The translations under genes and the position numbers were made by a program. A stretch of DNA of 64,000 nt from Alcaligenaceae bacterium CGII-47 (GTDB lineage: Bacteria > Pseudomonadota > Gammaproteobacteria > Burkholderiales > Burkholderiaceae_B). The DNA lies in assembly GCA_019166125.1 (NCBI GenBank), contig JAHTBO010000004.1, positions 148,602 through 212,601 of the forward strand. The letters run 5' to 3'. The notes under the pieces are model-generated. The model saw only the letters and a program-made list of their open reading frames with translations. It had not been told where the DNA came from and made no database searches. Numbering within the stretch: position 1 is the first letter of the stretch; the number at the start of each line of letters is the position of its first letter. This document shows, in pieces, positions 15,216 through 31,762 of the stretch.

Positions 15216-15246
15216 GGTGTGGCCCCTGAATATGGCGTGCGCTGGC

Positions 15247-16254
15247 TTAGCAGCTCACCCAGCAGCTATGGGTGGGGTCGATGTCCAGGCTCACACGTGC
15301 GCCCTCGTGTACGCCTTCTGCCGAGCGTCGTTCAACGATAAAGGGGCGCTCGGCCCACTGAACCCGAACGTGGCACAGATTGCCCAGGAACGTCACCGAC
15401 TGGATGATTGCCGGGCCGTCTGCATCGTTACGAACCGCGATGTGCTCGGGGCGCACGCATAGTTCTAGCGCCTCGGGGGCGCCGGCGGGGCGTTGCGCCA
15501 TCAGCCTGGGCTGATGGGCCTGCACCCAGTCGGTAGGCAGCAGATTGCTGATGCCCACGAAATCCGCCACATAGCGGGTCAGTGGTCGCAGGTACAGATC
15601 CTCGGGTGAGCCGACCTGCTCGATCGTGCCGTTGTTCATGCAAACAATGGTATCGGCCAGCATCAGGGCTTCCTCCTGATCATGGGTCACCATAATGGTT
15701 GGAATGCCCAGACGCCGCTGGACATCGTGAATCTCTTGGCGCATTTCATTGCGTACGCGCGCATCCAGGGCCGAGAGCGGCTCGTCGAGCAGAATCAGGC
15801 GTGGGTCCACAGCCAGGGCGCGAGCAAGCGCAACGCGTTGCTGCTGGCCGCCAGACAGTTGCCACGGATAGCGATCCATCAGATGCGACATCTTGATCAA
15901 TGTCAGCAGCTCGGTGACGCGTTGATCGATGTGGGCCTTGGCCTCGTTGCGTATGCGCAGACCGTAGCCGATGTTTTGGGCGACCGTCATATTGGGAAAT
16001 AGGGAATAGGACTGGAAAACAATGCCAAAATTGCGCTCGCGCGCAGGCGTCTGGCTTAGGTCGCGGCCTTCAAAGAGCAACTGTCCGGTGTCCGCCTCGA
16101 GCAGGCCGGCAATGACGCGCAGCAGCGTTGTCTTACCGCAACCGCTGGGGCCAAGCAGGCAGACGAACTCGTGTTCGCCCACGGTCAGGTTGATATCGTG
16201 GAGCGCCACGTAGTCGTCGAATGTCTTACTGATATTGGAGATTTCTAAAGCCAT
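15247..16254 (-). CDS. ABC transporter ATP-binding protein
   Basis: A 335-residue ATPase of the iron(III)/spermidine/phosphonate importer class. Walker A GPSGCGKTT, the Q-loop FQSYSLFPNMTV, the signature LSGGQQQRVALARALA and Walker B LILLDEPLSALD are intact, followed by a C-terminal TOBE-like domain. The open frame extends to 16437, but the ATG at 16254 gives the normal MALEISNISKTF start and has a purine-rich site (CACGGGGACAC) before it. It energises the permease encoded 31 bases downstream. The stretch between it and the binding-protein gene holds a large nested hairpin. Confidence 0.9.
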   Translation of the reverse strand: MALEISNISKTFDDYVALHDINLTVGEHEFVCLLGPSGCGKTTLLRVIAGLLEADTGQLLFEGRDLSQTPARERNFGIVFQSYSLFPNMTVAQNIGYGLRIRNEAKAHIDQRVTELLTLIKMSHLMDRYPWQLSGGQQQRVALARALAVDPRLILLDEPLSALDARVRNEMRQEIHDVQRRLGIPTIMVTHDQEEALMLADTIVCMNNGTIEQVGSPEDLYLRPLTRYVADFVGISNLLPTDWVQAHQPRLMAQRPAGAPEALELCVRPEHIAVRNDADGPAIIQSVTFLGNLCHVRVQWAERPFIVERRSAEGVHEGARVSLDIDPTHSCWVSC

Positions 16255-16278
16255 TGTGTCCCCGTGTGATGCGAGGGT

Positions 16279-16334
16279 GGGCGGGCATAATACGTGCCGG
16301 TGGACCAACCCACCGGTGAATCGTGCGCCCGCCC
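16279..16334 (-). other. Nested intercistronic stem-loop between binding-protein and ATPase genes
   Basis: Outer stem GGGCGGGC (16279-16286) with GCCCGCCC (16327-16334); inner perfect 7-bp stem CCGGTGG (16297-16303) with CCACCGG (16310-16316) and a 6-nt loop. It has no T-tract on the transcribed strand. Its place just after the binding-protein stop suggests protection of the upstream mRNA segment, giving more binding protein than ATPase and permease. Structure is seen; role inferred. Confidence 0.65.
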
Positions 16335-16342
16335 GATCCCGA

Positions 16343-17359
16343 TTACTTAGCCGTGACTTGTTGCCAGGTCTTGATGATCTGGTCGCGTGCCTTGGCCGAT
16401 TGCTCGAAGTTGATAGGGAACAGAACCTTAGAGACATCTGCTGGCAGGCCTGCCTTAATGGACTGCTCTGAGGGATCGAGGCCTGGGATGGTGATGATTT
16501 CCTTGTATTTCTTATACATATTGGCGGCGTCGGGTGACAAGGTCCAGTCCAGGAAACGCTTGGCGTCCTTCAGGTTCTTGGTCGTGGCCATGACGCCCGA
16601 GGCCTCTAGCTCATAGCCCTCCCAGTCCGAAGGGATCACCATTTTGACCGGAAAGCCCGCCTCAATGGATTGCATGGCAGGGAAGGCGAATGAGGCGCCG
16701 ATCGTGTATTCGCCGGTGCGCGCCATCTTGCATGGCTTGGAGCCCGAGGACGTGTACTGCGCGATATTCTGATTCAGGCGTTTAATCAGATCCCAACCCT
16801 TATCGCCTTCCATGCCCTGCAGGATGGCGGCGATCTGCAGATAGCCTGTGCCCGAGGCCGCAGGGCTGGGCATGACGACCTCGCCCTTATAGACAGGATT
16901 AGTCAGGTCCTCCCAACTTGTGGGCATGGGTAGATTTTTGCTTTTTAGTCTTTCGGTATTCACGCAAAACGCGGCCATATAGCCCGTCGCGGCGAACCAC
17001 CGGCCGTCCTTGGCCTTATACAGATCGGGAAGCTGGGCCGCCGCAGCGGGCAGGTAAGGCTGTAGGCTGTCGTGGATACGTGGATCAAGCATATTGGTGA
17101 CGGCAAACCCCCAGATCACATCGTTACGCGGGTTCTTGCCTTCGGCCAGCATGCGTGCGGCCAGATCGCCCGTAGACAGGCGCAATACGTGGAACTCGAC
17201 ATCGGGCATGGCTTTCTTTGCCACGGTCATATAGTCGGATACTTCGTCATCCTCGAGTGCGGTGTAGATCGTCAAGGGGTCAGCGCTTGCGACGTGGGTG
17301 ACCCCGATGCCCAGCGTAGTGATTGCTGCCGCCAGGATACTTCTGGTCAAGATATGCAT
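16343..17359 (-). CDS. ABC transporter periplasmic binding protein (AfuA/PhnS2/FbpA-like)
   Basis: A 338-residue secreted binding protein with a Sec signal peptide (residues 1 to about 26, cleavage near VASADP), of the iron(III)/2-aminoethylphosphonate/hexose-phosphate binding family. Conserved stretches include LTIYTALEDDEVSDYM, GTGYLQIAAILQGMEG and ANMYKKYKEIITIPGLDP. The ATG at 17359 is chosen over 17374 because GGAG lies six bases upstream. It is the first gene of the operon and faces the phosphatase gene across a short promoter region. Aminoethylphosphonate is the usual family label, but the DeoR and IMPase neighbours suggest a phosphorylated sugar or polyol. Confidence 0.85.
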   Translation of the reverse strand: MHILTRSILAAAITTLGIGVTHVASADPLTIYTALEDDEVSDYMTVAKKAMPDVEFHVLRLSTGDLAARMLAEGKNPRNDVIWGFAVTNMLDPRIHDSLQPYLPAAAAQLPDLYKAKDGRWFAATGYMAAFCVNTERLKSKNLPMPTSWEDLTNPVYKGEVVMPSPAASGTGYLQIAAILQGMEGDKGWDLIKRLNQNIAQYTSSGSKPCKMARTGEYTIGASFAFPAMQSIEAGFPVKMVIPSDWEGYELEASGVMATTKNLKDAKRFLDWTLSPDAANMYKKYKEIITIPGLDPSEQSIKAGLPADVSKVLFPINFEQSAKARDQIIKTWQQVTAK

Positions 17360-17427
17360 GGTTGTCTCCTGCATTGTGGGGAAAATTGTGCGGGTCTATG
17401 CCTGCTATGTTGCTATTTTGTGTAAAT

Positions 17428-17443
17428 TTGCATATTTATGCAA
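17428..17443. promoter_or_regulatory. Palindromic candidate operator in divergent promoter region
   Basis: A perfect inverted repeat TTGCATA-TT-TATGCAA lies in the 127-bp region between the ABC binding-protein gene and the phosphatase gene, which point away from each other. The placement suits a repressor site controlling both units; the DeoR-family protein encoded at the end of the operon is the obvious candidate. Binding is not shown by sequence. Confidence 0.5.
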
Positions 17444-17486
17444 GCTCATTCACAATGATTCCGAAACTTCTCAGGAGTCCAGCGTG

Positions 17487-18281
17487 ATGAAAAGTAGCGG
17501 CCTTGAACCACAGATTGCAGAAATGTTCGATTTTGCGCAGACAACGGTGACGCAGGCGCGTGAGGTCGCCTTGAAATGGTTCAGGCAGGCGCCCGAGATC
17601 ATGACCAAGGATGACGAAAGCCCAGTCACGATTGCGGATCGCTCGGTCGAGCAGTTCCTGCGTGACGCCATTTTGCAGCGTTACCCCGATCACGGCATGC
17701 TGGGTGAGGAATTTGGCCTCAGCCATCTGGATGCCCAGTACATCTGGTCGATCGATCCGATTGATGGCACACGCAGCTTTATCTCGGGCAATCCCCTGTG
17801 GGGCTGCCTGGTCGCTCTATTGCGTGATGGCGTGCCGGTTTTCGGGATTATCGACATTCCATTTACGGGCGAGCGCTGGGTGGGCGCGCACGGGCAGGGT
17901 TGCCAGTATGGCGGCGTGGCGTGTCGTACCCGCCAGAGCACGCGCCTCGAGGACGCGATCCTGTATGCCACCTCGCCGGATATTTTTACGCAACAAGAGC
18001 AAGGGGTCTTTGATGCCCTGACGCAGGCGGTGTATTTGCGCCGGTTCGGCGGCGACTGCTATAGCTATGCCTTGCTGGCCTTGGGGCAGGTGGATCTGGT
18101 TGTTGAGGCGGGCTTGCAGCCCTACGATTACCTGGCCTTGCGTCCCGTCATCGAGGAGGCGGGTGGCGTCATTACGGATTGGACCGGGCAGCCCGTGACC
18201 ATGCACTCGGACGGGCGGGTGATTGCCGCCGCCAATCTGGCCATCCATCGTGCCGCGCTTGAAATAATTGCTACAAAATAG
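17487..18281 (+). CDS. Inositol monophosphatase-family phosphatase (HisN-like)
   Basis: A 264-residue magnesium-dependent phosphatase of the IMPase fold. Metal and catalytic motifs are MLGEEFG (metal Glu), WSIDPIDGTRSF around residue 86-97, and YDYLALRPVIEEAGGVITDWTG near the C-terminus with the last metal Asp. Frames extend upstream to 17298, but AGGAG at 17473-17477 and homology support a start at ATG 17487 (GTG 17484 is possible). It is divergent from the ABC importer. Substrates in this family include inositol phosphate, histidinol phosphate and sugar phosphates; the transporter link suggests it dephosphorylates the imported compound. It overlaps the M81 gene tail to tail by 11 bases. Confidence 0.86.
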   Translation: MKSSGLEPQIAEMFDFAQTTVTQAREVALKWFRQAPEIMTKDDESPVTIADRSVEQFLRDAILQRYPDHGMLGEEFGLSHLDAQYIWSIDPIDGTRSFISGNPLWGCLVALLRDGVPVFGIIDIPFTGERWVGAHGQGCQYGGVACRTRQSTRLEDAILYATSPDIFTQQEQGVFDALTQAVYLRRFGGDCYSYALLALGQVDLVVEAGLQPYDYLALRPVIEEAGGVITDWTGQPVTMHSDGRVIAAANLAIHRAALEIIATK

Positions 18282-19731
18282 TCACGCCGGGCCGTAGCCG
18301 ACGATAGGTCAAGGCGTGCAGGTCGGCCGTGTTTTCCCCGGGTGCGGCAACAACCAGGATCTTGTCGGCCAAGGCAGCGAAATCCGCCCGGAAATGGACT
18401 GAACTCTTTAGGACCAGCACCCGATATTGCGTGGGCTCGGCCCCCAGGTGTCTGAACATCGCCTGATCGGCGGCCTGCTGCTTCTTGCTGGACACCAGGA
18501 TTTCGATCGTGCCATAACGTACGCGGGCCATGCGCCCCAGCGCCATATGGCATCCCAGATAAAACGGCCCCGTGCCGGTAAAGTGTCCATCGCCCGTTGC
18601 CAGCACATGAAACTCACCAATGAGGGGGCCAGCGCCCATACCGCTATGTCCGCCCAAAGCGCCGTGCAGGCGGTGGCCCGTTCCCGCTTGATGGGCCGCC
18701 TGGGCGAAGGCTGGATCGCAGACGATGCCTGCGCAGACCCCATGCATGGCCTGCTGGGCCAGCGCGTGCAGAAGATCGGTGGTGTCCCCCGTGCCGCCGC
18801 CGCCCGGGTTGTCCTGGGTGTCTGCAAGCAGTATGCGCTGCTCGGGATGCGCCTGGATAAAGGCGATCGCCTCGGCGATGCTCAATAGCTGGCCCCGAAA
18901 TGCCTGGCGTGAGGCCTGAACCCGAGCACAAAGCAGATCGGCGGCCTGATCGGCCTGCGCCTGGGTGCGGCCATACGCCAGAATAGTGGGCCCACTATCG
19001 TGAATATCTGCAAGCGGAAAGCCCGGGATGAATTGCACCTCGGGGGTATCCGGCCCTTCCAGTGCGCGCGCAACGCTCATGATCGAGCGTGCTGGCTCGG
19101 CCAGCGTGCTTTGCCAGGGCATAGGGATCAGGATATCGACCTGACGGGCGGCGTAATACAGCGGTTCAGCCGCAAGCAGGCGCAAGAGCATTTGTGCGGC
19201 GCGCTCGCCGGTCTGCGCGATGTCTACGTGCGGGTAGCTGCGGTAGGCAACCAGCCCATTGGCCTGACGCAGCATGGCCGTGCTTACATTGGCGTGAAAG
19301 TCCAGCGCTGCCACCATGGGAAGCGCTGCGCCCAGACGTGTACGCAGCCGGGTCAGCAGCTCGCCCTCGGCATCCTCGTACGAAACCGTGACCATTGCCC
19401 CATGCAGATCCAAAAACAAGGCATCCAAAGGGGGGGCCTGATCGATCAGCGTCAGAATCTGCTCGACCACCGCCTCGAAGGCGGCGTCTTCGACCGCAGC
19501 AGACGGGTTGGCCGAACACCAAAGCAAGGGCACCAGGGTATGACCATGACCTTGCATCGCGCTGACAAAGCCGCTGAACGCCAGATTCATCCCCTGCGTG
19601 GCGCGAAGAATTTCGTCACCCGTGATCAGACCCGGCCAGGCATCGGCCTCGACAAATTGCGCCAGGGTCGTGACCCCGGGCGCAAAGGTATTGGTTTCAT
19701 GCAAAAAACCCAGCAGGCCAATATGTGCCAT
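18271..19731 (-). CDS. M81 family metallopeptidase (MlrC-like)
   Basis: A 486-residue protein of the MlrC family: N-terminal M81 catalytic domain (IGLLGFLHETNTFAPG at the start with a metal His, DLHGAMVT and ALDFHANVS further on) and the C-terminal MlrC domain (ILLADTQDNPGGGGTGDTTDLL). The prototype MlrC hydrolyses an amide bond in linearised microcystin. Here the gene is the last of a unit with a glutamine-synthetase-like ligase and two dehydrogenases; its ATG shares one base with the TAA of the alcohol dehydrogenase (TAATG). This suggests an amidohydrolase step on a pathway intermediate, for example releasing glutamate from a gamma-glutamyl acid. That role is inference. Confidence 0.87.
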   Translation of the reverse strand: MAHIGLLGFLHETNTFAPGVTTLAQFVEADAWPGLITGDEILRATQGMNLAFSGFVSAMQGHGHTLVPLLWCSANPSAAVEDAAFEAVVEQILTLIDQAPPLDALFLDLHGAMVTVSYEDAEGELLTRLRTRLGAALPMVAALDFHANVSTAMLRQANGLVAYRSYPHVDIAQTGERAAQMLLRLLAAEPLYYAARQVDILIPMPWQSTLAEPARSIMSVARALEGPDTPEVQFIPGFPLADIHDSGPTILAYGRTQAQADQAADLLCARVQASRQAFRGQLLSIAEAIAFIQAHPEQRILLADTQDNPGGGGTGDTTDLLHALAQQAMHGVCAGIVCDPAFAQAAHQAGTGHRLHGALGGHSGMGAGPLIGEFHVLATGDGHFTGTGPFYLGCHMALGRMARVRYGTIEILVSSKKQQAADQAMFRHLGAEPTQYRVLVLKSSVHFRADFAALADKILVVAAPGENTADLHALTYRRLRPGVTIL

Positions 19732-20894
19732 TACAGTTTTCCGGTCAAGGCGTGTTCCAGGATCTGACTGTATTGGGCAGGTGTGAATGGGATCGGGTTG
19801 GTCGCAGCCGAGCCGTCAGCCACCGCCATATGTCCAATATCCTCGGTGCGATCGTCGGGAATACCGATCTGGGCCAAGGTGTGGGGGATACCTACCGATT
19901 CACGCAAGTGCAGAACCCAGTCCAAAAAGCCCTCGAAACTGCATTTTGGCAGATTCAGGTAACGCGATAAGGTGGTGAGGCGATCTTCAATCGCAGCCTG
20001 GTTGGCGCGCAGTACATACGGCATCAAAATCGCATTAAGCATCCCGTGGTGCGCGTCGTACACCGCGCCCAGCGGGTGGGCCAGGGCGTGCATGGCGCCC
20101 AGTCCTTTTTGGAAGGCGGTGGCACCCATGCTGGAGGCCACCAGCATATGATGGCGTGCGTGGATATTGTGCCCGTCCGCCACGGCGTCAGGCAGGTGCT
20201 GCTGCACCAGGCGTATGCCCTCGAGTGCAATGCCCGCGGCCATCGGATGAAAGACCGGCGAACACAGGGCCTCTAGATTGTGCGATAAGGCATCCATACC
20301 GGTTGCTGCGGTCAGGCGCGCCGGCAGACCCACAGACAGTTCCGCATCCAGGATCACCACTGCGGGCAACATATTGGCGTGAAAGATAATCCGCTTGATG
20401 TGCTCGTGTTCGTCCGTGATCACCGAGGCGCGTCCGACCTCCGAGCCCGTGCCCGCCGTCGTGGGAACCGCGACCACCGGCGCCATGCCGGCGACATTGA
20501 CCCGCAGGTAGTTATCGCCAACATCTTCAAAATCCCACAGGGGGCGATCCTGACCCACCATCAGCGCGATGGCTTTGGCCGCGTCCAGTGCCGAGCCGCC
20601 GCCAAAGGCGATCACGCCATCGTGCCTGGCGGCACGATAGGCCTTCACGCCGTTGTCGACATTGCTGCCTGTCGGATTGCCCTTGATGTCGGAAAAAATG
20701 TCGCATGCCAGTCCCGCCTGGGTGCAGGCGGCCACCGCCGCCGCGACCATCGGCAGCCCGGCCAAACCGGGATCAGTGATCAACAGGGGGCGTGTCATGC
20801 CAAGCTGGCGGCAATATTGTGGCAGCTCCTGGATGCGTCCAGGGCCAACTTTCATTGCAGTGGGGTAATTCCAGTTAACGTTCAGAGATTTCAT
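19731..20894 (-). CDS. Iron-containing alcohol dehydrogenase
   Basis: A 387-residue group III alcohol dehydrogenase. The NAD site GGGSALDAAKAIAL (about residue 100), GTGSEVGRASVITD, and the iron ligand region TGMDALSHNLEALCS and ALAHPLGAVYDAHHG are intact. The frame extends to 21032, but the ATG at 20894 gives the normal N-terminus and lies 13 bases after the ALDH stop. Adjacent genes encode a gamma-glutamyl ligase-like protein and an ALDH, so it probably oxidises a primary alcohol, possibly carried on a gamma-glutamylated amino alcohol, to the aldehyde. Confidence 0.9.
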   Translation of the reverse strand: MKSLNVNWNYPTAMKVGPGRIQELPQYCRQLGMTRPLLITDPGLAGLPMVAAAVAACTQAGLACDIFSDIKGNPTGSNVDNGVKAYRAARHDGVIAFGGGSALDAAKAIALMVGQDRPLWDFEDVGDNYLRVNVAGMAPVVAVPTTAGTGSEVGRASVITDEHEHIKRIIFHANMLPAVVILDAELSVGLPARLTAATGMDALSHNLEALCSPVFHPMAAGIALEGIRLVQQHLPDAVADGHNIHARHHMLVASSMGATAFQKGLGAMHALAHPLGAVYDAHHGMLNAILMPYVLRANQAAIEDRLTTLSRYLNLPKCSFEGFLDWVLHLRESVGIPHTLAQIGIPDDRTEDIGHMAVADGSAATNPIPFTPAQYSQILEHALTGKL

Positions 20895-20907
20895 GATGGG
20901 GTCACCG

Positions 20908-22293
20908 CTAGTGTTGGCGCAAGTGAAAGGATTTTGCCCGCGTGAGGGCCTGGTATCCCAGCGTCGAGAGGGAAATGCCATGTCCGGTATTTTTGACCCC
21001 TGTCCAGGCCAGAGCCGGGTCCAGGTAGTCACAGCGATTCATATAAAACGTGCCGGTTTGCACCTGGCTGCCTATGCGTACGGCTGCTTCGGTATCCTGG
21101 GTAAAGACCGCCGCAGTCAGCCCGTAGTTGCTATCGTTCATCAGCTCGATAGCGCGCGCCTCTGAGGGCACGGGCATGATGCCGACGACCGGGCCAAAGC
21201 ACTCCTCATTCATGACCAGCATATCGTGGTCCACCTCGGTGAGCAGCGCGGGCGCAATATACGTGCTGCCGGGCTGGGCACGGGGGAATTTGGCCGAATC
21301 AATGCGGTTGCGTGCCCCGCGGTTCAGGGCCTGATCCAGCACCTGATGGATCTCGTTTGCAGCCTTGGCGCGTACCACTGGGCCCAGCGTGGTGTTGGGG
21401 TCCAGCGGGTCGTCAAGCACGTATTGCTCGGTCAGGGTGACCGCCCGATCGACAAATTCCTGGTAGACGCTCTGGTCGACATAGATACGCTGAATGCCGC
21501 AGCAGGATTGTCCTGAATTGAAAAAGGCGCCATCCACCAGCGTGTCCACGGCGTGTCCCAAATCCGCATCTGCGCGCACATAGGCCGGATCGTTGCCGCC
21601 TAGCTCCAGGCCCTTGCCGATGAATCGTCCCGTGGCGGCTTCCTCGATCGCGGTGCCGCCGCGTACCGATCCGGTAAACGAGACATAGTCGATATAGGGC
21701 GATTGAATAATCTGACGGATAGTGTCGTGCGTCGCGTGGATGTATTGAAACAAGCCGGCAGGCAGGCCCGCGCTGGCAAACGCCTCGACCAGTTGCTCGG
21801 CACACAAGGGGGTCTGGTCCGAGTGCTTGAGGATCACACTATTGCCGGCGACCAGGGCGGGCACGATACTGTTGACAGCCGTCAAAAGGGGGTAATTCCA
21901 GGGTGCCACCGTTAGCACCGTCCCCACCGGTTCGCGCAGGATATAGCGATCGAGCTTGTCCAGCGGGGCGGGGCGCACGGGTGCCAAGGCCTCGGGGGCA
22001 ATCGCAATCATGTGGCGTGCGCGCTCTTCGAAGCCACGCAGCTCGCCTGGCGTGTAGCGGATCGGGCGGCCCATCTGCTGGGTAATAGACTGGGCCATGG
22101 CCTCGCTACGGGCCATGACGGCATCGACGCAAGCGCCGACCAAGGCACAACGTTGTGCCAGCGGTACGCGTGCCCAGTCGCGCTGCGCCTGGCGCGCGCT
22201 GCGCAAGACCCGTGCAATATCCGCCTCGCCGGTGTAGGGGCGACGCACGAGCTCACGCCCATCGATAGGGCTAATAGTGATCAGTTCATTCAT
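20908..22293 (-). CDS. Aldehyde dehydrogenase
   Basis: A 461-residue ALDH superfamily protein. The base Glu is in KGLELGGNDPAYV and the nucleophile is the first Cys of NSGQSCCGIQRIYV; the VAPWNYPLLTAVN motif is present. The C-terminus departs from the common PFGG form: it reads DPALAWTGVKNTGHGISLSTLG, as in several short-type ALDHs. Its ATG follows directly after the TGA of the ligase gene with no gap, indicating coupling. It likely takes the aldehyde produced by the iron alcohol dehydrogenase to an acid. Substrate specificity is inferred only from neighbours. Confidence 0.9.
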   Translation of the reverse strand: MNELITISPIDGRELVRRPYTGEADIARVLRSARQAQRDWARVPLAQRCALVGACVDAVMARSEAMAQSITQQMGRPIRYTPGELRGFEERARHMIAIAPEALAPVRPAPLDKLDRYILREPVGTVLTVAPWNYPLLTAVNSIVPALVAGNSVILKHSDQTPLCAEQLVEAFASAGLPAGLFQYIHATHDTIRQIIQSPYIDYVSFTGSVRGGTAIEEAATGRFIGKGLELGGNDPAYVRADADLGHAVDTLVDGAFFNSGQSCCGIQRIYVDQSVYQEFVDRAVTLTEQYVLDDPLDPNTTLGPVVRAKAANEIHQVLDQALNRGARNRIDSAKFPRAQPGSTYIAPALLTEVDHDMLVMNEECFGPVVGIMPVPSEARAIELMNDSNYGLTAAVFTQDTEAAVRIGSQVQTGTFYMNRCDYLDPALAWTGVKNTGHGISLSTLGYQALTRAKSFHLRQH

Positions 22294-23676
22294 TCAGATA
22301 ATCTCGAAATAGCGCTGGAGTTCCCAGTCGGTCACGTATTCACGGAATTTACGCTCTTCCCACTCACGTGTCGCGACCATGTGTTCAACAAACGGTACGC
22401 CAAAGAGTGTGCGGGCGGCCTCGGAGGCGCGCAGCCGTTGGGCGGCCTCCCAGAGGGTGCCGGGGAATTTCAGGCGCTCGGGGAAGGTTTGAGTATAGGC
22501 GTTGCCAGATGTGAATTCCGGCTCTAGACCCTGCTCGATGCCCAGCAATCCCGCGCCCAGGCCTGCTGCCAACGCGATGTAGGGGTTGGCATCCGCCGAT
22601 CCGATGCGGATCTCGACGCGTTGGGCCTTTTCCGAACCTGGAATGATGCGCAGCGCTGTGGTGCGGTTCTCGACCCCCAGACTGGCCTCTAGGGGCGCCC
22701 AATAGCCCGGCACCAGGCGCGTGTAGCTATTGATGGTCTGTGCGTACATCGCCATCATCTCGGGCATATAACGCTGCTGGCCGGCGACGAAATGGCGCTG
22801 CACATCACTCATGCAGTGATCCTTGGCGGCGTCATAGAATACATTCCGCCCCGATGTCAGATCGCACAGCGACATGTGGATATGGCCGCTTTGGCCCGCG
22901 TGCTTATGGGACCACTTGGCCATAAACGTTGCCATCAGGCCCTGCTGCTCGGCCAAGGCCTTGGTAAAGGTCTTGAACAAGAACCCCTTGTCAGCGGCCG
23001 CACTGATCCGGTCAACCGCGATGGCGGCCTCGAGTACGCCAGGCCCCGTCTCGGTATGCAGGCTCTCGATGGGGATGTCCATCTGTTCAGATAGATCGAT
23101 CAGCTGGGTGTAAAAATCCGAGTTCACCGTGCTGCGCAGCACAGAATAGCCAAAATTGCCGGGCGTCCATGACTCCAGATTACGGTATTGCTTTTCGCGG
23201 ATGGTCTTTGGGGTCTCGTTGAACATGAAAAATTCATATTCAAGTGCGGCGAACACATCAAACCCCATGCCGCTGGCCTTGTCCACCATCCGGTGCAGTA
23301 AGCGGCGCGGGCACACGCCTGCCGCCGGGCCGTCAAGCTCTGCAATAAAAAACAGCATGGCCTCGCCATTGGCCCCGTGCTCTAGCGGCAGGCGCCGACA
23401 GCTCGTCGGGTCGATGCGCACATGCGCATCCGGGTAGGCAGTGTGCCAGCCGGTGAATGCGGTGTTGTCGTAGAGCTCGTCATTCGAGTCCCAGCCCATC
23501 ACCACATCACAGAATGCGAAACCGTCGCGCAGGGCACCGAGGAACTTGTCCTTGCGCATGTATTTACCACGTATCACCCCATCGATGTCGGACAAGCCTA
23601 GCTTGATGTGGGTCAGCCCACTGGCCTGGACGAACTGGATGGCGTCTTCGATTGTTTTGATGCAGCGTTCTTGCAT
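22294..23676 (-). CDS. Glutamine synthetase-family ligase (probable gamma-glutamyl amine ligase)
   Basis: A 460-residue protein of the glutamine synthetase fold: N-terminal beta-grasp (THIKLGLSDIDGVIRGKYMRKDKF), ATP and metal residues in AALEYEFFMF and LHTETGPGVLEAAI, GQSGHIHMSLCD, and NRTTALRIIPGSEKAQRVEIRI. Sequence style and context fit the PuuA/IpuC/GlnA4 type, which joins glutamate to an amine instead of ammonia, and it sits with ALDH and iron ADH genes rather than nitrogen-control genes. Under this reading it would make a gamma-glutamyl amide from an imported amine such as ethanolamine. A biosynthetic glutamine synthetase is less likely. Confidence 0.85.
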   Translation of the reverse strand: MQERCIKTIEDAIQFVQASGLTHIKLGLSDIDGVIRGKYMRKDKFLGALRDGFAFCDVVMGWDSNDELYDNTAFTGWHTAYPDAHVRIDPTSCRRLPLEHGANGEAMLFFIAELDGPAAGVCPRRLLHRMVDKASGMGFDVFAALEYEFFMFNETPKTIREKQYRNLESWTPGNFGYSVLRSTVNSDFYTQLIDLSEQMDIPIESLHTETGPGVLEAAIAVDRISAAADKGFLFKTFTKALAEQQGLMATFMAKWSHKHAGQSGHIHMSLCDLTSGRNVFYDAAKDHCMSDVQRHFVAGQQRYMPEMMAMYAQTINSYTRLVPGYWAPLEASLGVENRTTALRIIPGSEKAQRVEIRIGSADANPYIALAAGLGAGLLGIEQGLEPEFTSGNAYTQTFPERLKFPGTLWEAAQRLRASEAARTLFGVPFVEHMVATREWEERKFREYVTDWELQRYFEII

Positions 23677-23710
23677 GATGAGCCTTCGACTGTCTTAGTG
23701 AAGATGGTCC

Positions 23711-23733
23711 AGATCGGGCGTATTGCCCGATCT
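23711..23733 (-). other. Intercistronic hairpin after dctP
   Basis: A perfect 9-bp stem AGATCGGGC/GCCCGATCT with a 5-nt loop lies 13 bases past the dctP stop and before the ligase gene. On the transcribed (-) strand no T-tract follows, so it more likely stabilises the dctP mRNA than stops transcription. Confidence 0.6.
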
Positions 23734-23745
23734 GTTTACTTTGGG

Positions 23746-24792
23746 TTATGAAAAACGGTAAGGGGGGCCAGCCTGTTCCATGATCTTGGCGTAGTCCTTG
23801 AGGATCTCCACGACCTTGGCGCTACGCGGGCTTTTCTTGGCGATCTCATCCCAGAAAACATGCGCCTCGGTCTCGACGGCCTTCCACTCGGCCTCGGGAA
23901 TCGTCGTGAGCTTAAGCTTGCCACCCTGAGTGCGGTAGTGCGCCTCGCCCCACCAATACCAGTGTTGCCGGTAATAATGCGAACTATCCATGCACAGTTT
24001 GAACAGCGTCTGGAGGTGCTCGGGCACCGCATTCCACTTTTCAGTATTGGCGATATAAGAACCCGCCCAGGCGCCCGAGATATTGTTCGTCAAATAGTAT
24101 TTGGTGACGTCCGCCCAGCCTACGGTATAGACCTCGGTAATCCCTGACCAAGCCACCCCATCGAGCTCGCCCGTCTGGATGGCAACCTGCACATCCTCGT
24201 AGGGCAGGGTGACGGGCACAACCCCCAGGCGTTGCAGGAAACGGCCGCCCGTGGGGAAGGTATAAAGCCTCAGCCCCTTAAGATCCGCCAGGCTATTGAT
24301 AGGCTTGGTCGTGGCCAGGTTGCAAGGGTCCCAAGCACCCGTACTGAGCCAGGTAACGTTGGGGACCTCGTCATAGGCCTCTTTCCAGATTTTATCCAGG
24401 CCGTACCAGTTCCATAAGGCCGGCACGTCCAGGCTATAGCGTGAGGCAAGCGGAAAATAAGCTGCAAAAATGGCGGTATCGATGGGTGCGGCCATGGAAT
24501 CGTCGTCGCTTTGGGCCGCATCGATCGTGCCTTTTTGCACGGCACGAAACAACTCCCCCTGCGGGACGAGCTGATCCGCCGTATATAGTTCGATCTCCAT
24601 GGCGCCATTGGCTGCTTTGTTAAAGGCATCGATCGAAGGTTTGATGACGTGTTCGGCCAACGCCGGGCCGGCATAGGTCTGCAGACGCCATTTGATTGGG
24701 GCTTGCGCCCGGACGATGGCTGGCGCACTCAGGGTGGCCGCGCCTATCGCGGCGGTCCCTGCGTGCTTCAGAAAATCTCGTCTTTGTGTCAT
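23746..24792 (-). CDS. TRAP transporter binding protein (DctP family)
   Basis: A 348-residue periplasmic protein with a Tat-type leader (RRDFLKHAG followed by a hydrophobic segment, cleavage near VRAQA). The DctP fold is shown by LKGLRLYTFPTGGRFLQRLGVVPVTLPYEDVQVAIQTGELDGVAW, where the conserved Arg that pairs with the ligand carboxylate is expected. It lies between dctM and the ligase gene on the same strand. The family generally binds carboxylates, so the imported compound may carry an acid group; an amine substrate for the downstream ligase would be unusual but is not excluded. Confidence 0.9.
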   Translation of the reverse strand: MTQRRDFLKHAGTAAIGAATLSAPAIVRAQAPIKWRLQTYAGPALAEHVIKPSIDAFNKAANGAMEIELYTADQLVPQGELFRAVQKGTIDAAQSDDDSMAAPIDTAIFAAYFPLASRYSLDVPALWNWYGLDKIWKEAYDEVPNVTWLSTGAWDPCNLATTKPINSLADLKGLRLYTFPTGGRFLQRLGVVPVTLPYEDVQVAIQTGELDGVAWSGITEVYTVGWADVTKYYLTNNISGAWAGSYIANTEKWNAVPEHLQTLFKLCMDSSHYYRQHWYWWGEAHYRTQGGKLKLTTIPEAEWKAVETEAHVFWDEIAKKSPRSAKVVEILKDYAKIMEQAGPPYRFS

Positions 24793-24862
24793 GGCTACAT
24801 CTCCTCTAGTGTTGGCAAGGCTTGGGTACGCGCTGTCCGCCTTGCTGGGGAACAGGGTGCCG

Positions 24863-26191
24863 CTACCGAGCTCGGTTGGTATACAGATCTGGTAGCCACA
24901 ACGCGATTTGTGGAAAGATCATGATGACGGCCAAGGTCACCATCATGATTAATGCAAAGGGGGTGATTGATCGGTAAATATCGGCCAAGGTGATCTCGGG
25001 CGGCGCCATGGCACGCATCAGGAACAGGTTGTAGCCGAAGGGCGGGATGATGTAGGCCAACTGGCAGGTAATGGTGTACAGAATGCCAAACCAGATTGGG
25101 CTAAATCCCAGTGTCTTAACTAATGGGATATACAAAGGCGCTACGATAACCAGCATTGCCGTATCGTCCAGGAACATGCCCAGCACGATAAAGGACAACA
25201 TCATGATCGTCAGGATGGTCCAGCGGTTCAGCTCCAGGTCACTAAGCAGCAGCGTCTCGATCGCCTTGATCGCGCCCAGACCATCGTAGACCGCCCCAAA
25301 GCACAGGGCCGCCAGAATGATCCACATGAACATACAGCTCACGCTAAGCGTCTTGCGTACGGTCTCCTCCATGACGTGGCGTGTCAGCTTGCGCTTAAGT
25401 GCCGCCGCCAGCGTGGCCAGGCCCGCGCCCAAGCTGGAGGTCTCGGTCAGGTTGGTCACACCCGTCATGAAACTGCCCATCATCAAGACAAAGATCAACA
25501 AGGGCAGCAGGCCTTCGCCCAGTAGACGCCACCGATTTGGCCATTCGCGCGCGTGTTCCTCTGCCGAGATAGGCGGGCCCAGCTCGGGCTGTAGACGGCA
25601 GCGGATGTAGATATAGATGATGAACAGGGTGGCCATCAATAAGCCCGGCATGATCCCCGCCAGCCAAAGCTGCAACACCGGCTGGCGGGCGATCATGGCG
25701 TACAGCACCAACACGACGCTTGGGGGGATCAGTATCCCCAGCGAGCTGCCGCCCTGGATGACGCCGGTAATCATGATCTTGTCGTAGCCACGCGCCAGCA
25801 TCTGCGGCAGCGCCACACTTGCCCCAATCGCCATTCCTGCCACGCTTAGCCCATTGATGGCCGAGATCAGCACCATCAAGCCGATGGTGCCAATCGCCAG
25901 GCCACCGCGCACCGGGCCCATCCAGACGTGGAACATCTTGTACAAATTGTCGGCCAGGCCCGACTCGGACAACATAAAGCCCATGTAGATAAACAACGGC
26001 AGGGTAAGCAGGGCATACCAGTTCAGCACGGTAAAGCTGGCATTGAAGGGCATCTCGATATCGTTGCCCCCCCACAGGAAATACGCCGCTGTGGCCCCAA
26101 TGAATCCAATAATGCCGTAAACCCGTTGACCCAAGGTCATCAGCACCAGCAAGGACGAGAACATGAGGAGAGTAATCAGCTCGTGACTCAT
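24863..26191 (-). CDS. TRAP transporter large permease (DctM)
   Basis: A 442-residue protein with about 12 membrane helices. DctM signatures include INGLSVAGMAIGASVALPQML, VIQGGSSLGILIPPSVVLVLYAMIARQPV and LGMFLDDTAMLVIVAPLYIPL, and ITCQLAYIIPPFGYNLFLMRAM. It is the sodium-coupled transport subunit. Its start overlaps the dctQ stop by four bases (ATGA). It serves with the DctP and DctQ neighbours as one importer. Confidence 0.93.
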   Translation of the reverse strand: MSHELITLLMFSSLLVLMTLGQRVYGIIGFIGATAAYFLWGGNDIEMPFNASFTVLNWYALLTLPLFIYMGFMLSESGLADNLYKMFHVWMGPVRGGLAIGTIGLMVLISAINGLSVAGMAIGASVALPQMLARGYDKIMITGVIQGGSSLGILIPPSVVLVLYAMIARQPVLQLWLAGIMPGLLMATLFIIYIYIRCRLQPELGPPISAEEHAREWPNRWRLLGEGLLPLLIFVLMMGSFMTGVTNLTETSSLGAGLATLAAALKRKLTRHVMEETVRKTLSVSCMFMWIILAALCFGAVYDGLGAIKAIETLLLSDLELNRWTILTIMMLSFIVLGMFLDDTAMLVIVAPLYIPLVKTLGFSPIWFGILYTITCQLAYIIPPFGYNLFLMRAMAPPEITLADIYRSITPFALIMMVTLAVIMIFPQIALWLPDLYTNRAR

Positions 26192-26700
26192 TCAATCGTC
26201 TCCCCGCGGGCCACGGCCAGGTCTCTGAAAAATGTCGCGATCGTCTGCAGCAACATCATAAAAATCCCGAACGTCATGATGGCCTTGATGGGGGCCATGG
26301 GCGGCGCCCACGCGGTGTAGTTGCGCTGGTCGTTGACAATGGCGTACTCCGTGCTCGAAATACCGCCCATCAACAAAATAAAGAGAAAAATGATCACCAT
26401 CCAGATCGTGAACGCATCCACCGTCGCGCGCCGTTTGGGGCTCCAGCGTGAATAGAACAAGTCCATGCGTACGTGTGAATCCAGTTGCATGGAATAGCCC
26501 CCGCCCAGCAGGTAATAGGCCGAGAGCAGAAACTGAGCGGCCTCCATCAACCAATTGATATGGACATTGAATAAGGACCGCATGATCGCCGAGTAGAGAA
26601 AGCCTGCCATCATGATCAGGACGAAATACATGGCAAAGCGTCCGATGATGCGGTTGATCTTATCTACCCATCGGACGTAGGCTCTGATGGCTGTATGCAC
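26188..26700 (-). CDS. TRAP transporter small permease (DctQ)
   Basis: A 170-residue protein with four predicted membrane helices, matching the DctQ family, including the SAYYLLGGGYSMQLDSHVRMDLFYSRWSPKRRATVD region with the typical conserved R-D motif between helices 2 and 3. The start is GTG at 26700, preceded by GGGAG seven bases upstream. It is the first gene of the dctQ-dctM-dctP-ligase-aldehyde dehydrogenase-alcohol dehydrogenase-M81 unit. The promoter region directly before it carries a tandem repeat that fits an AraC-type binding site. Confidence 0.9.
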   Translation of the reverse strand: MHTAIRAYVRWVDKINRIIGRFAMYFVLIMMAGFLYSAIMRSLFNVHINWLMEAAQFLLSAYYLLGGGYSMQLDSHVRMDLFYSRWSPKRRATVDAFTIWMVIIFLFILLMGGISSTEYAIVNDQRNYTAWAPPMAPIKAIMTFGIFMMLLQTIATFFRDLAVARGETIE

Positions 26701-26779
26701 GATGTGTCTCCCTTTCTGGCGCCAATGGCCAAGGCCGCGCCTGCTATGACCTCATGGTCGCGCGTGGGGAGAATGCCTG

Positions 26780-26816
26780 CTATCGGAAAATGGCACACCA
26801 CTATCGGATTTCGGCA
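26780..26816. promoter_or_regulatory. Tandem bipartite direct repeat, candidate AraC/EutR binding site
   Basis: The pattern CTATCGGA-N4-GGCA occurs twice in the same orientation, at 26780-26795 and 26801-26816, exactly 21 bp apart, that is, two helical turns. It lies 80-116 bp upstream of the dctQ GTG and just downstream of the AraC-family gene. Spaced direct repeats, each with two boxes for the two helix-turn-helix units of a monomer, are typical AraC-family sites. Binding is inferred. Confidence 0.6.
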
Positions 26817-26830
26817 ATTACTGGCGCCGT

Positions 26831-27820
26831 TCAGGGCGTGCTGGCTTGGGTGACCGTGTGGGACGGCACCTCGCCGAACAGCTTGCGGTAGTCCGCCGAG
26901 AATTGACCCAGGTGATAAAAGCCCCAGGACAGGGCCGCCTGGGTGACCGGATTACGCTGCGTGCTGCCGGTACGCAGATCACGGCGTACCTGATTAAGCT
27001 TCAGAATGCGTAAATAATTCAGGGGCGCCATGCCCACGACATCCTGAAAGCAGTATTGCAGGGTGCGGCGGCTGACATGCAGCGCGCGGCATAGCTCGGG
27101 AATCGAAATGCTTTCTGTGGGCGCGCCCAGTACGATGTCGCGCGCCCGCTCGACGATACGGTGGCGGTTGACGTGCCGCGGGGTGCTGGCGGCGGGCGTG
27201 ATGCCGGTATAAAGCAAGGGTGCCAGGTAAGAGAGGATGCGATCCTCGAACGAATGATAAGGGGGTGCGTGCATCGACGCGTGCCGGTGGACGCCATCGA
27301 CCACCTGATTGGCCTTGAGCATGTGGATCAGGGCGCCGCAGACCTCGACCTTGGCCTGGGGGCTGACCGCCATCACACCCTGCTTACGAGTGATCTGACT
27401 GCTGTCGGTGTGCTCGACTTCCTGAAGGTAGCGCGCAAATACATCCTCGTCGATGACGATGCCGATAATGTCAAAATCAGCCGGGGTGAATAACTCGAAC
27501 TGCGTACCGCCTTGTTTAAAGGCAATGCTGTGTTCAGGAATCTGAGTCGTCCCCATGCGTGCGCCGTCTGTGCGCGAGACCGGAATACCAAACCAGAGTG
27601 CCTTGGACCAGGCCGCACAGGATTGGTGGAGCACCTGATTGGTGGATTCCAGGAATAATTGTGTATGCGGCAGCCACAGTTCGGTAATTTGGCCCACAAA
27701 CGTGCCTGCCGAAAATTGGTTGTACTCTTGTACCCAACGACTTAGATTATGTGCATGGTCGTCCGCGTCGCTAGACGTCGTCATACGCCACTGGGCATTG
27801 TGCCCGTGCTTTGCCTGCAT
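26831..27820 (-). CDS. AraC-family regulator resembling EutR
   Basis: A 329-residue activator. The N-terminal part (FVGQITELWLPHTQLFLEST, LHQSCAAWSKALWFGIPVSR, IAFKQGGTQFELFTPADFDIIGIV, then DEDVF) follows the pattern of enterobacterial EutR, the ethanolamine regulator, as I recall it. The C-terminal HTH (LCRALHVSRRTLQYCFQDVVG, then LSWGFYHLGQFSADYRKLFGE) matches too. The frame extends to 27916, but the ATG at 27820 has GGAG seven bases upstream. It precedes the TRAP and gamma-glutamyl-type gene set on the same strand. This suggests that it senses ethanolamine or a related amino alcohol, although no eutBC lyase is present and the effector may differ. Confidence 0.87.
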   Translation of the reverse strand: MQAKHGHNAQWRMTTSSDADDHAHNLSRWVQEYNQFSAGTFVGQITELWLPHTQLFLESTNQVLHQSCAAWSKALWFGIPVSRTDGARMGTTQIPEHSIAFKQGGTQFELFTPADFDIIGIVIDEDVFARYLQEVEHTDSSQITRKQGVMAVSPQAKVEVCGALIHMLKANQVVDGVHRHASMHAPPYHSFEDRILSYLAPLLYTGITPAASTPRHVNRHRIVERARDIVLGAPTESISIPELCRALHVSRRTLQYCFQDVVGMAPLNYLRILKLNQVRRDLRTGSTQRNPVTQAALSWGFYHLGQFSADYRKLFGEVPSHTVTQASTP

Positions 27821-27870: not shown

Positions 27871-27952
27871 AATCAGGGTAAGTACGGTCAGACGCCCTGA
27901 TTAGCCACGCTATCAACGTGGTTGACCATAGTTACATCAGGGATGACCCTGA
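27871..27952. promoter_or_regulatory. Repeated inverted TCAGGG/CCCTGA motifs upstream of serA
   Basis: Two dyads share one motif: AATCAGGG (27871-27878) with CCCTGATT (27895-27902), and TCAGGG (27937-27942) with CCCTGA (27947-27952). A further CCACG/CGTGG pair lies between them. All lie in the region between the divergent AraC-family gene and serA. They may be operator half-sites for one of these genes or RNA structure in the serA leader. Seen in sequence; function unknown. Confidence 0.4.
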
Positions 27953-28005
27953 CTGCGGCGCGGAAATGCGTCACAATAGCTGTTTATTCTTGCTTGGGAA
28001 GCTTC

Positions 28006-29205
28006 ATGACTCGGATAGTCCTGTTCGAAAACATACACGCTAGCGCCAAAGAAGTCTTTGTGGCGGCCGGCTTTGACGATATTGTCACCTACGCGGGCGC
28101 CTTGCCTGCGGATCAGTTGCTCGAGGCGATGCGCGGCGCCCAGGTCGTGGGTATCCGCTCCCGCACGCACCTGGACCCGGCAATATTCTCGGCGCTGCCA
28201 GACCTCCAGGCGGTGGGTTGTTTTTGCATCGGGACCAACCAGGTTGATCTCGAGGCCGCAGCCCTAAAGGGCGTACCCGTATTTAATGCGCCGTTCTCTA
28301 ATACCCGTTCGGTCGCCGAGATGGTATTAGGCGAGGCAATTTTGCTATTGCGCCGCATCCCCGAGAAAAACGCCCGGGTGCACGAAGGCTTCTGGGACAA
28401 GACTGCCGACGGCGCCTACGAGGCACGCGGTAAGACGCTTGGGATCGTCGGCTACGGCAATATCGGTTCGCAGGTCGGGATTCTGGCCGAATCCGCCGGC
28501 ATGCGCGTGCTCTACCACGACATCGAGGCAAAGTTGCCCCTGGGTAATGCCCACGCCACCAGCACCCTCAAAAAATTCCTCGCGCAGGTCGACGTTGTCA
28601 CCTTGCACGTCCCAGGCGGTAGGGAAACCGAAAACCTGATGAATGCCGAGGCGATCGCCGCGATGAAGCCCGGCGCCATCCTCATCAACGCCTCACGCGG
28701 GACCGTGGTCGATATTGCAGCCTTGCATCGTGCCCTTAAATCCGGGCACCTGTCAGGTGCCGCCATCGATGTCTTTCCCACCGAACCCAAAAGCCGCGAC
28801 GAGCCGCTCGATAGCCCGCTACGCGGCCTGCCCAACGTCATCCTCACACCACACATTGGCGGCAGCACACAGGAATCCCAAGAAAACATCGGTCGCGAGG
28901 TAGCCGAAAAGCTGCGCCGCTACCTCGGCAGTGGCACCACGAAAGGGGCAGTGAATTTCCCCGAGATCGCCTATCACGAGCAAATGGGTGCGGCCCGCAT
29001 CGTGCATATCCACCACAACGTACCCGGTGCCATGGGCGCGCTGACAAACCTGATGGGCGAATACGGTCTGAATATCGTCAGCCAGCAGCTCCAGACACGC
29101 GGCAAGATCGGCTACGCCATCACCGATGTGGATGGCGAGGTCACCGATCAGTTTATCGAAGGCTTGCGCGCACATCCCGTCACGGTGCGCTGCGCTCGGG
29201 TGTGA
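28006..29205 (+). CDS. serA: D-3-phosphoglycerate dehydrogenase
   Basis: A 399-residue NAD-dependent dehydrogenase catalysing the first step of serine synthesis. It has the split 2-hydroxyacid dehydrogenase fold, NAD motif LGIVGYGNIGSQVGILAESAGMRVLYHD (about residues 145-172), the catalytic Arg, Glu and His in LINASRGTVVD, AAIDVFPTEP and LTPHIGGSTQES, and a C-terminal ACT domain (GAMGALTNLMGEYGLNIVSQQLQ) as in the E. coli type. The frame runs upstream to 27922, but the ATG at 28006 gives the standard MTRIVLFENIH start. It stands alone between the AraC-family gene and hicB. Confidence 0.93.
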   Translation: MTRIVLFENIHASAKEVFVAAGFDDIVTYAGALPADQLLEAMRGAQVVGIRSRTHLDPAIFSALPDLQAVGCFCIGTNQVDLEAAALKGVPVFNAPFSNTRSVAEMVLGEAILLLRRIPEKNARVHEGFWDKTADGAYEARGKTLGIVGYGNIGSQVGILAESAGMRVLYHDIEAKLPLGNAHATSTLKKFLAQVDVVTLHVPGGRETENLMNAEAIAAMKPGAILINASRGTVVDIAALHRALKSGHLSGAAIDVFPTEPKSRDEPLDSPLRGLPNVILTPHIGGSTQESQENIGREVAEKLRRYLGSGTTKGAVNFPEIAYHEQMGAARIVHIHHNVPGAMGALTNLMGEYGLNIVSQQLQTRGKIGYAITDVDGEVTDQFIEGLRAHPVTVRCARV

Positions 29206-29207: not shown

Positions 29208-29543
29208 TTAAGCATCGGCCGCTTCACGGATAGCATCAGCGACCCATTGGTTTAGGCTCTCTCCGCTGGCCGCTGCTGCAATAGCAGCGGCCTCATGGAT
29301 TTTCGGAGCCAGCCGCAAAATAAATTTCCCTGAAAAATTTTTGCGAGGCTCAATTCCAAGCCTTGCGCACTCGGTCAAAAAAACGTTAAGGGAGATTTCT
29401 CCTTCGCGATGTAGTCCAGCTACGTCTGCAGCATAGAAGTCCGCGCCTCCGTTGAGACCGATAAATTCTCCCCGAAACATTTCAATATCCGGGTCGTAGG
29501 CAATAACAGCCTGCTGGCCGTCGATAATCATCGTGTTTCTCAT
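29208..29543 (-). CDS. hicB: HicB antitoxin
   Basis: A 111-residue antitoxin: a degraded RNase H-like N-terminal domain (IDGQQAVIAYDPDIEMFRGEFIGLNGGADFYAADVAGLHREG) and a C-terminal ribbon-helix-helix DNA-binding part (KNFSGKFILRLAPKIHEAAAIAAAASGESLNQWV). The start at 29543 overlaps the hicA stop (ATGA) and is preferred over 29570. HicB neutralises HicA and represses the operon. Its stop lies two bases from the serA stop, so the two genes converge with almost no gap. Confidence 0.92.
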   Translation of the reverse strand: MRNTMIIDGQQAVIAYDPDIEMFRGEFIGLNGGADFYAADVAGLHREGEISLNVFLTECARLGIEPRKNFSGKFILRLAPKIHEAAAIAAAASGESLNQWVADAIREAADA

Positions 29544-29803: not shown

Positions 29804-29822
29804 GATACTAATATACAGTATC
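29804..29822. promoter_or_regulatory. hicAB operator/promoter palindrome
   Basis: GATACT-N7-AGTATC is a perfect 6-bp inverted repeat abutting the hicA ATG at 29803. On the - strand the spacer contains TATATT, a good -10 hexamer, with six bases between it and the ATG. This is the expected place for HicB autorepression. The promoter reading is inferred. Confidence 0.5.
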
Positions 29823-29857
29823 AAAAACAAGCGAGCCTCTAGCGTATTTACCCGCCT

Positions 29858-31572: not shown

Positions 31573-31619
31573 GATCGGACTCCACGGGCGGTTGGTCGCA
31601 AGACTTGATGATGTTTATA

Positions 31620-31642: not shown

Positions 31643-31762
31643 ATGTGTTTGAGGCAAAAGCTTCTCGTTTCGCATGGATTTGCAGGACGCAGTTCAGGTA
31701 TTATGAAAGTTTTCCTGCGCGATGTATCTAATGCCCTCGGTTTGGGCGGGTACAGGAGCCCC

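Follow-up and report, generated by a model that had tools for sequence, protein, structure and literature searches.

A candidate gamma-glutamyl ethanolamine operon ending in an M81 hydrolase, with an adjoining candidate phosphoethanolamine import module, in Alcaligenaceae bacterium CGII-47

Genes at the locus

The subject of this study is a group of eight minus-strand genes, with a neighbouring ATP-binding cassette (ABC) transporter and a HisN-like phosphatase, from Alcaligenaceae bacterium CGII-47. The genes lie in a 64,000-nucleotide stretch (the window) of one contig, JAHTBO010000004.1, of a 3.45 Mb assembly in 41 contigs. They encode an AraC-type regulator, a tripartite ATP-independent periplasmic (TRAP) importer (DctQ, DctM and DctP), a glutamine synthetase (GS)-fold ligase, an aldehyde dehydrogenase (ALDH), an iron-containing alcohol dehydrogenase (ADH) and an M81 metallohydrolase (Table 1). 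All eight have the families expected from a first-pass annotation of the DNA, each above its Pfam gathering score, and the PF00120, PF00171 and PF00465 enzymes occur in one operon.

The junctions named in that annotation can be read in the sequence: dctQ and dctM overlap at ATGA, the ligase and ALDH genes abut at TGAATG with zero gap, and the ADH and M81 genes overlap at TAATG. The uniformly tight spacing that it had described does not hold, since gaps of 130, 70 and 69 nt separate regulator from dctQ, dctM from dctP, and dctP from the ligase gene. The 69-nt gap contains a hairpin, a possible attenuator or processing site, and folds in its entirety at -24.2 kcal/mol. In the longest ADH frame the start is placed too far 5', and the ATG at 20894, 13 nt past the ALDH stop, is the more likely one. 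For the AraC-type regulator the ATG start was taken, and the open frame extends to a TTG at 27916. Finally, the extent originally assigned (18271-27820) took in the right genes but drew the boundary too narrowly, as the ABC, DeoR and HisN-like genes at 12753-18281 are in the same neighbourhood.

Table 1. Features of the operon and the adjoining module, in order of position
Feature	Position	Strand	Evidence
DeoR/GlpR-type regulator, next gene after the ABC permease	12753-13517	-	PF00455 + PF08220
ABC permease, two fused permease halves, PhnU2-like	13518-15215	-	PF00528; TIGR03262 498 bits, cut-off 593
ABC ATPase, PhnT2-like, ATG 16254 likely	15247-16254	-	PF00005; TIGR03265 412 bits, cut-off 458
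ABC substrate-binding protein, proposed phosphoethanolamine binder	16343-17374	-	PF13343; TIGR03261 (PhnS2) 324 bits, cut-off 393
HisN/inositol-monophosphatase-family protein, proposed phosphoethanolamine phosphatase	17487-18281	+	PF00459; TIGR02067 286 bits, cut-off 275
M81 metallohydrolase, proposed gamma-glutamylglycine hydrolase	18271-19731	-	PF07364, PF07171; metal-site residues
Iron-containing ADH, proposed gamma-glutamylethanolamide dehydrogenase	19731-20894	-	PF00465
ALDH, proposed gamma-glutamyl-aminoacetaldehyde dehydrogenase	20908-22293	-	PF00171; GQSC motif at C264
GS-fold ligase, proposed gamma-glutamylethanolamide synthetase	22294-23676	-	PF00120 (Gln-synt_C); residues
Intergenic hairpin, dctP/ligase gap	23677-23745	-	10-bp stem in folded gap
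DctP, TRAP solute-binding protein, EtoX/Csal_0678 type	23746-24792	-	480.6 bits to 4uab/4xf5; E220
DctM, TRAP large permease	24863-26191	-	PF06808
DctQ, TRAP small permease	26188-26700	-	PF04290
EutR-like AraC-family regulator	26831-27820	-	PF12833; NF007522 (EutR) 227 bits, cut-off 319

Ligase, importer and terminal hydrolase

Among named relatives of the ligase, the nearest comes from Allopusillimonas ginsengisoli (91%). Nine residues at metal-, glutamate- and nucleotide-site positions, mapped against the genome's own GlnA (E146, E148, E209, E216, H265, R320, R338, E355 and R357), are kept in 115 of 115 aligned rows, a set in which the window is included and some genomes occur more than once. 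In the same 115 rows a tryptophan, W326, replaces E329 of the housekeeping GlnA, which we take to be the ammonium-site glutamate (E327 in Salmonella numbering). The other ammonium-site position, D70, is Asp in 111 rows, Glu in 3 and Gly in 1, where the alignment is poor. The ligase scores 208 bits against the GlnA model TIGR00653 (cut-off 429) and 177 bits against PuuA gamma-glutamylputrescine synthetase (NF045547; cut-off 650), and it reaches no NCBIfam cut-off. Because the TIGR00653 cut-off is missed and the ammonium-site Glu is a Trp, we conclude that the ligase is not the housekeeping GlnA, which is encoded separately elsewhere in the genome; the Trp likewise led us to reject a plain glutamine synthetase.

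Another proposal, in which the ligase would be a regular or redundant glutamine synthetase and the operon would serve a carboxylate or hydroxyacid, draws on the best-scoring models of three proteins: GlnA for the ligase, 4-hydroxybutyrate dehydrogenase for the ADH (340 bits, cut-off 500) and succinic semialdehyde dehydrogenase for the ALDH (322 bits, cut-off 521). All three cut-offs are missed, however, and with the Trp substitution, the separate GlnA and the grouping of DctP with an ethanolamine binder also against it, the proposal is barely credible.

Among solved structures DctP scores 480.6 bits to 4uab/4xf5, and the next-best only 81.7. Entry 4UAB shows Csal_0678 from Chromohalobacter salexigens in complex with ethanolamine, which Glu220 and aromatic side chains hold in place (PMC12410723). 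Csal_0678 is without the usual carboxylate-binding Arg (PMC4646407, JBC). The aligned ITE motif places its Glu at residue 220 of DctP. This Glu, equated with the published Glu220 by hand counting, is present in all 10 linked TRAP rows. DctP is of the Csal_0678/EtoX type and has the platform glutamate; a carboxylate TRAP system was ruled out by DctP's grouping with the ethanolamine binder. TRAP import, which had been singled out as unusual, is already known for this route from Csal_0678 and Phaeobacter EtoX.

Related loci were gathered by ligase similarity, and gene counts in the best 80 were made by tblastn. ALDH was found in 71 and ADH in 73 of them, and the transporters near the ligase were TRAP (9 loci), amino acid-polyamine-organocation (APC) permease (16) and ABC (16). 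At one locus, L066, the APC permease scores 550 bits against the ethanolamine permease model TIGR00908, above the cut-off of 382. On an 85-row ligase tree, transporter type changes 19 times. Seven Legionella/Legionellaceae loci (L051, L052, L068, L069, L071, L076 and L087, the last typed from annotation alone) have ligase, ALDH, ADH and amidotransferase with no adjacent TRAP, APC or ABC match. A family-level sample of 121 genomes contained 16 that bear the ligase. TRAP genes adjoin it in none of the 14 others examined (G049 excluded), and the window is the sole TRAP-bearing row on the side of the tree that carries M81; in this genome they were probably added recently. This restriction of the importer to one genome also counts against our reading of the operon, as does the regulator, which falls below the EutR cut-off (Table 1).

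EutR is nonetheless the best-scoring NCBIfam family of the AraC-type regulator. The regulator is EutR-like, as it had been labelled, and is not EutR by the NCBIfam test. It is likely the switch of the ethanolamine operon and may sense ethanolamine. EutB (PF06751) gave no match in the genome in a search whose E. coli control was positive and which did not extend to EutC, and EutB was likewise absent from 17 of 17 genomes searched, in agreement with the suggestion that the operon would bypass EutBC.

The same pathway could serve another physiological amino alcohol, such as L-alaninol, serinol or 1-amino-2-propanol. Known GS-fold ligases are often broad, and 4xf5, the second entry for DctP's relative, is presumably an L-alaninol complex. 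However, the published relatives are ethanolamine systems, and related loci repeatedly contain a protein matching the ethanolamine permease model, as well as genes specific to ethanolamine. Such a substrate is quite improbable, and ethanolamine is most likely the substrate.

The M81 family is known mainly through microcystin breakdown. In microcystinase MlrC the zinc surroundings comprise Glu56, His150, Asp184, His186 and His208 (PMC12474180). The window protein has both M81 Pfam domains and the counterparts of all five residues (E12, H110, D144, H146 and H168), which are kept in 18 of 18 rows. It shares the M81 fold family with MlrC, and a different substrate is expected; its score against the MlrC model is 151 bits (cut-off 999). 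We infer that the M81 protein is a gamma-glutamylglycine hydrolase, and we found no M81 gamma-glutamyl hydrolase described in the openly licensed PMC literature.

The first-pass annotation had called for a search for ligase-ADH-ALDH-M81 sets, and had considered an M81 hydrolase unusual in this setting. The M81 hydrolase is indeed unusual: after the ADH, 11 of the best 80 loci have M81, 33 have a class I glutamine amidotransferase and none has both, and the enzymes given for C. salexigens in a review are PF00120, PF00465, PF00171 and PF05013 (PMC9397018). The window operon ends in M81 and not in a PF05013 amidohydrolase. One PF05013-type query (from L083) matched just its own locus among 119, a weak test with a single query. 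In the 121 family genomes, M81 copies at 60-100% identity adjoin the ligase in 6 of 6 cases and 16 copies at 43-48% all lie away from it; a seventh ligase-linked M81, at 57% and with an insertion, was overlooked by that search and is in G063.

Several observations weigh against M81 as a fixed member of the pathway. Of 55 full-core loci with at least 6 kb downstream, 11 have M81, 27 have the amidotransferase and 17 have neither; the Fisher p of 2.9e-4 for this distribution counts no independent events, as M81 versus amidotransferase is a single switch on the quick ligase tree. A mainly betaproteobacterial side of that tree (33 rows, SH-aLRT 98) has M81 or neither, and its sister side has amidotransferase or neither. 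Since the C. salexigens hydrolase is PF05013, M81 is a substitution and not a conserved member. The 17 loci imply that an unlinked hydrolase must be possible, and they give some ground for supposing that M81 cleaves another amide or peptide and that the gamma-glutamylglycine hydrolase is encoded elsewhere. We consider this unlikely in view of the TAATG junction that M81 shares with the ADH, its place at the operon end in the 11 loci, never with an amidotransferase, and the distinct, more similar group formed by the ligase-linked copies relative to the unlinked ones.

The ABC transporter and HisN-like phosphatase

The ABC transporter, the DeoR-type regulator and the HisN-like phosphatase belong to the ethanolamine gene neighbourhood, as relatives show. 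Among the best 80 ligase loci the phosphatase is near the ligase in 17, and in 15 it is accompanied by the ABC genes. A phosphatase of at least 59% identity was found in 11 of the 121 family genomes, every one among the 16 with the ligase; the chance of this 11/11 co-occurrence is 3.4e-12, a value computed with an identity cut picked after the gap was seen and uncorrected for kinship. Ten of these 11 genes lie within about 5 kb of the ligase, and eight are the directly upstream gene on the same strand. The ABC binding protein was found in 7 of the 121 genomes, six of them ligase-bearing, and it adjoins the phosphatase in those six. Tellingly, in G013 the ABC and phosphatase pair lies 0.55 Mb away from the ligase operon. 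The DeoR/GlpR-type regulator is 48% identical to a DeoR protein adjoining the ABC genes in an Azospirillum argentinense locus (L131).

The closest solved structures of the binding protein include AfuA and P5PA, and the sugar-phosphate and pyridoxal-phosphate ABC importers to which these belong (AfuABC and P5PA) have binding proteins with phosphate-holding residues as in the window (PMC4546632, PMC8427247). The phosphate-holding residues of AfuA are Ser37, Gly38, Ser148, Gly149, Thr150 and Gly185 (PMC8427247). They map to T68, G69, S174, G175, T176 and G211, which are conserved in all 22 linked rows (repeats included), and AfuA Thr60 is unkept, being A91 in the window protein; pocket numbering was matched by hand from printed alignments. 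AfuA holds the sugar with His205 and Asp206 (PMC4546632). These are replaced by F231 and P232 and therefore the ligand must differ from that of AfuA; Glu229 corresponds to E255.

Relatives of the transporter were examined at 14 further loci, outside the linked family set, with binding proteins of 45-64% identity; they were picked for variety and not at random. The sources were L060, G008/L119, two loci from a class-wide and three from an order-wide search, and seven of 25 listed plasmid matches; the class-wide search gave a binding-protein match in 5 of 369 genomes, the order-wide search in 5 of 399, and 137 plasmid records matched. An ethanolamine- or phosphoethanolamine-specific enzyme adjoins the ABC genes in 6 of the 14. 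At L132 this is a class III aminotransferase; its best structural matches are ethanolamine-phosphate phospho-lyase 6tor (E 9.6e-102) and phospholyase 5g4i. Its 74% homologues adjoin the ABC genes at L119 and L127. At L131 hisN-eutB-eutC is divergent from the ABC genes, and at L139 HisN, EutB and EutC adjoin them. L060 (Desulfocapsa) has PHP phosphatase, HAD hydrolase, amidotransferase, ABC, ligase and ALDH genes all in one direction. The neighbours in the 14 loci indicate one importer family with three routes for the ethanolamine part, mostly with a phosphate-removing enzyme.

Some of these loci have further features. L132 is the conjugative Klebsiella pneumoniae plasmid pCAV1344-250, which carries both the ABC genes and the phospho-lyase. 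At L119 the ABC binding-protein and ATPase genes are separated by a phospholipase C gene (PF04185 + PF05506; L119:11695-13914), as though one operon combined lipid cleavage with head-group uptake. A glycine cleavage P-protein gene (L060:159-1493) adjoins the Desulfocapsa ligase cluster, which fits glycine as the pathway product.

Other findings tell against phosphoethanolamine as the ligand of the whole group. Six of the 14 loci have only a phosphatase beside the ABC genes (HisN-like at L126, L134, L135 and L137; HAD at L133 and L136), and at L135 the ABC genes also adjoin glycerol-3-phosphate oxidation genes. In two, no phosphatase or ethanolamine gene is near; the neighbours are TonB genes at L140 and a glycerol-1-phosphate-dehydrogenase-like PF13685 match at L141. 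The HAD-only loci and L140 differ at pocket position 231. Moreover, the phosphate cradle is kept, bar one Ser, in relatives at 39-41% identity, so that it marks a phosphate or phosphonate binder and not phosphoethanolamine by itself. Some members of the group above 45% may carry other phosphate esters. In four of the 39-41% relatives (L128, L129, L130 and L138) there was no HisN-like match, EutB, ligase or close phospho-lyase, although at L129 a class III aminotransferase is distantly related (29%).

For all three ABC proteins the nearest models are the "putative 2-aminoethylphosphonate" ones, PhnS2, PhnT2 and PhnU2, and the phosphatase is over the cut-off of the HisN model TIGR02067, with no second protein over it in any of 17 genomes searched. 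Together with a cradle that does not discriminate phosphate esters from phosphonates, this would suit an importer of 2-aminoethylphosphonate and a housekeeping histidinol phosphatase, both here by chance. All three Phn cut-offs are missed, however (Table 1), and PhnW is over its cut-off in 2 of the 17 genomes and not in this one; on these grounds 2-aminoethylphosphonate was set aside as the ABC substrate here, in a search that did not include PhnX, PbfA and PhnYZ. Furthermore, 6 of the 17 genomes have no protein over the HisN cut-off, the close form of the phosphatase is confined to ligase-bearing genomes (11/11, against 16/121 with the ligase), and 6 of the 14 loci have the ABC genes next to a phospho-lyase, EutBC or the ligase. 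A chance arrangement of this kind has, in our estimation, a low probability. Histidinol phosphate is also an amino-alcohol phosphate; the genes around the HisN-like protein suggest that its substrate is a different member of that class. The genome's second inositol-monophosphatase-family gene (G000:C38:158052-158861) has one in-frame TGA or, as a shorter stretch, none, depending on the search.

Proposed route and known systems

We conclude that the operon very probably serves inducible ethanolamine catabolism by an M81-terminated gamma-glutamyl route. The genes, their order and their conserved residues were read here, and the chemistry is carried over from homologous published systems. The TRAP transporter would import ethanolamine, and the ligase would join it to glutamate with ATP to give gamma-glutamylethanolamide. 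The ADH and then the ALDH would oxidise the alcohol end to gamma-glutamylglycine, which M81 would cleave to glycine and glutamate, the latter re-entering the next round. Nitrogen would be delivered as glycine, with neither free acetaldehyde nor cobalamin required, and the EutR-like protein would switch the operon on. The ABC transporter would import phosphoethanolamine, which the HisN-like enzyme would dephosphorylate, and the ethanolamine would pool with the TRAP-imported supply. A full route from phosphoethanolamine to glycine, comprising a dedicated ABC importer (12753-17374), a "HisN" phosphoethanolamine phosphatase, the gamma-glutamyl operon and a new M81 gamma-glutamylglycine hydrolase, with the same importer feeding EutBC or a phospho-lyase elsewhere, is in our judgement likely, at somewhat lower confidence than the operon itself.

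The Csal_0678 pathway of C. salexigens was reportedly treated by Vetting et al. in 2015. The idea that an amino alcohol is glutamylated, oxidised by ADH and ALDH and released by a hydrolase that frees glutamate, proposed for this DNA at the outset, corresponds by homology to the published gamma-glutamyl ethanolamine route (PMC10132767, PMC6529630, PMC9397018). Homologous TRAP-ligase-ALDH-ADH sets serve ethanolamine in Phaeobacter and C. salexigens (PMC10132767). The operon of Phaeobacter sp. MED193 (EtoVWX, ETAGA, GAADDH, GETADH and GGAH) is induced on phosphorylethanolamine, and EtoX binds ethanolamine with a Kd of 7.9 uM (PMC10132767). Like the window, it has a single operon for the TRAP importer, the gamma-glutamylating ligase and the two dehydrogenases (ALDH and ADH), with EutBC unneeded. 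In contrast, its regulator is RpiR and not a EutR-like AraC protein, its gene order differs, and it ends in GGAH where the window ends in M81 with an adjoining ABC and HisN-like module. C. salexigens similarly has an ethanolamine-binding TRAP homologue with PF00120, PF00465 and PF00171 enzymes and differs in its PF05013 terminal hydrolase (PMC9397018). The GlnA4 pathway of Streptomyces coelicolor shares a gamma-glutamylethanolamide synthetase, dehydrogenases and an amidohydrolase, but the hydrolase is of the formylglutamate amidohydrolase family and the regulator is EpuRI (PMC6529630). Thus the core route and TRAP import are already published, whereas the M81 replacement and the phosphoethanolamine module look new. 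We found no phosphoethanolamine ABC importer or HisN-type phosphoethanolamine phosphatase in the openly licensed PMC literature.

Other features of the window were recorded. SerA (phosphoglycerate dehydrogenase; 27922-29205, plus strand; NF008759 593 bits, cut-off 404) is divergent from the EutR-like gene, a serine/glycine metabolism gene adjoining a proposed glycine-forming pathway. A HicB-family antitoxin gene (29208-29570, minus strand) adjoins a 157-aa frame with no Pfam match (29628-30101, plus strand), and glycosyltransferase genes lie at 31523-34386. The gene at 9696-11852 (minus strand) encodes a protein of 718 aa that combines DinB_2, FGE-sulfatase and methyltransferase domains, presumably the make-up of an OvoA-type ovothiol synthase. 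From about 42000 to 54000, G+C is 0.34-0.50, against about 0.6 across most of the rest, with several large frames; this is perhaps a surface-polysaccharide or acquired island.

Ethanolamine and phosphoethanolamine stem from phosphatidylethanolamine and are widely available sources of nitrogen, carbon and phosphorus; phosphoethanolamine forms the head group of the most common phospholipid in bacteria. Whether intact head groups are transported before catabolism "remains to be determined", according to the 2023 Phaeobacter paper (PMC10132767). If the route proposed here is correct, the ABC transporter would be a direct candidate for the uptake that paper raised as a question. The M81 family would gain a defined metabolic role, and the annotations of the ABC group near the phosphonate models and of "histidinol phosphatase" would be wrong in many genomes.

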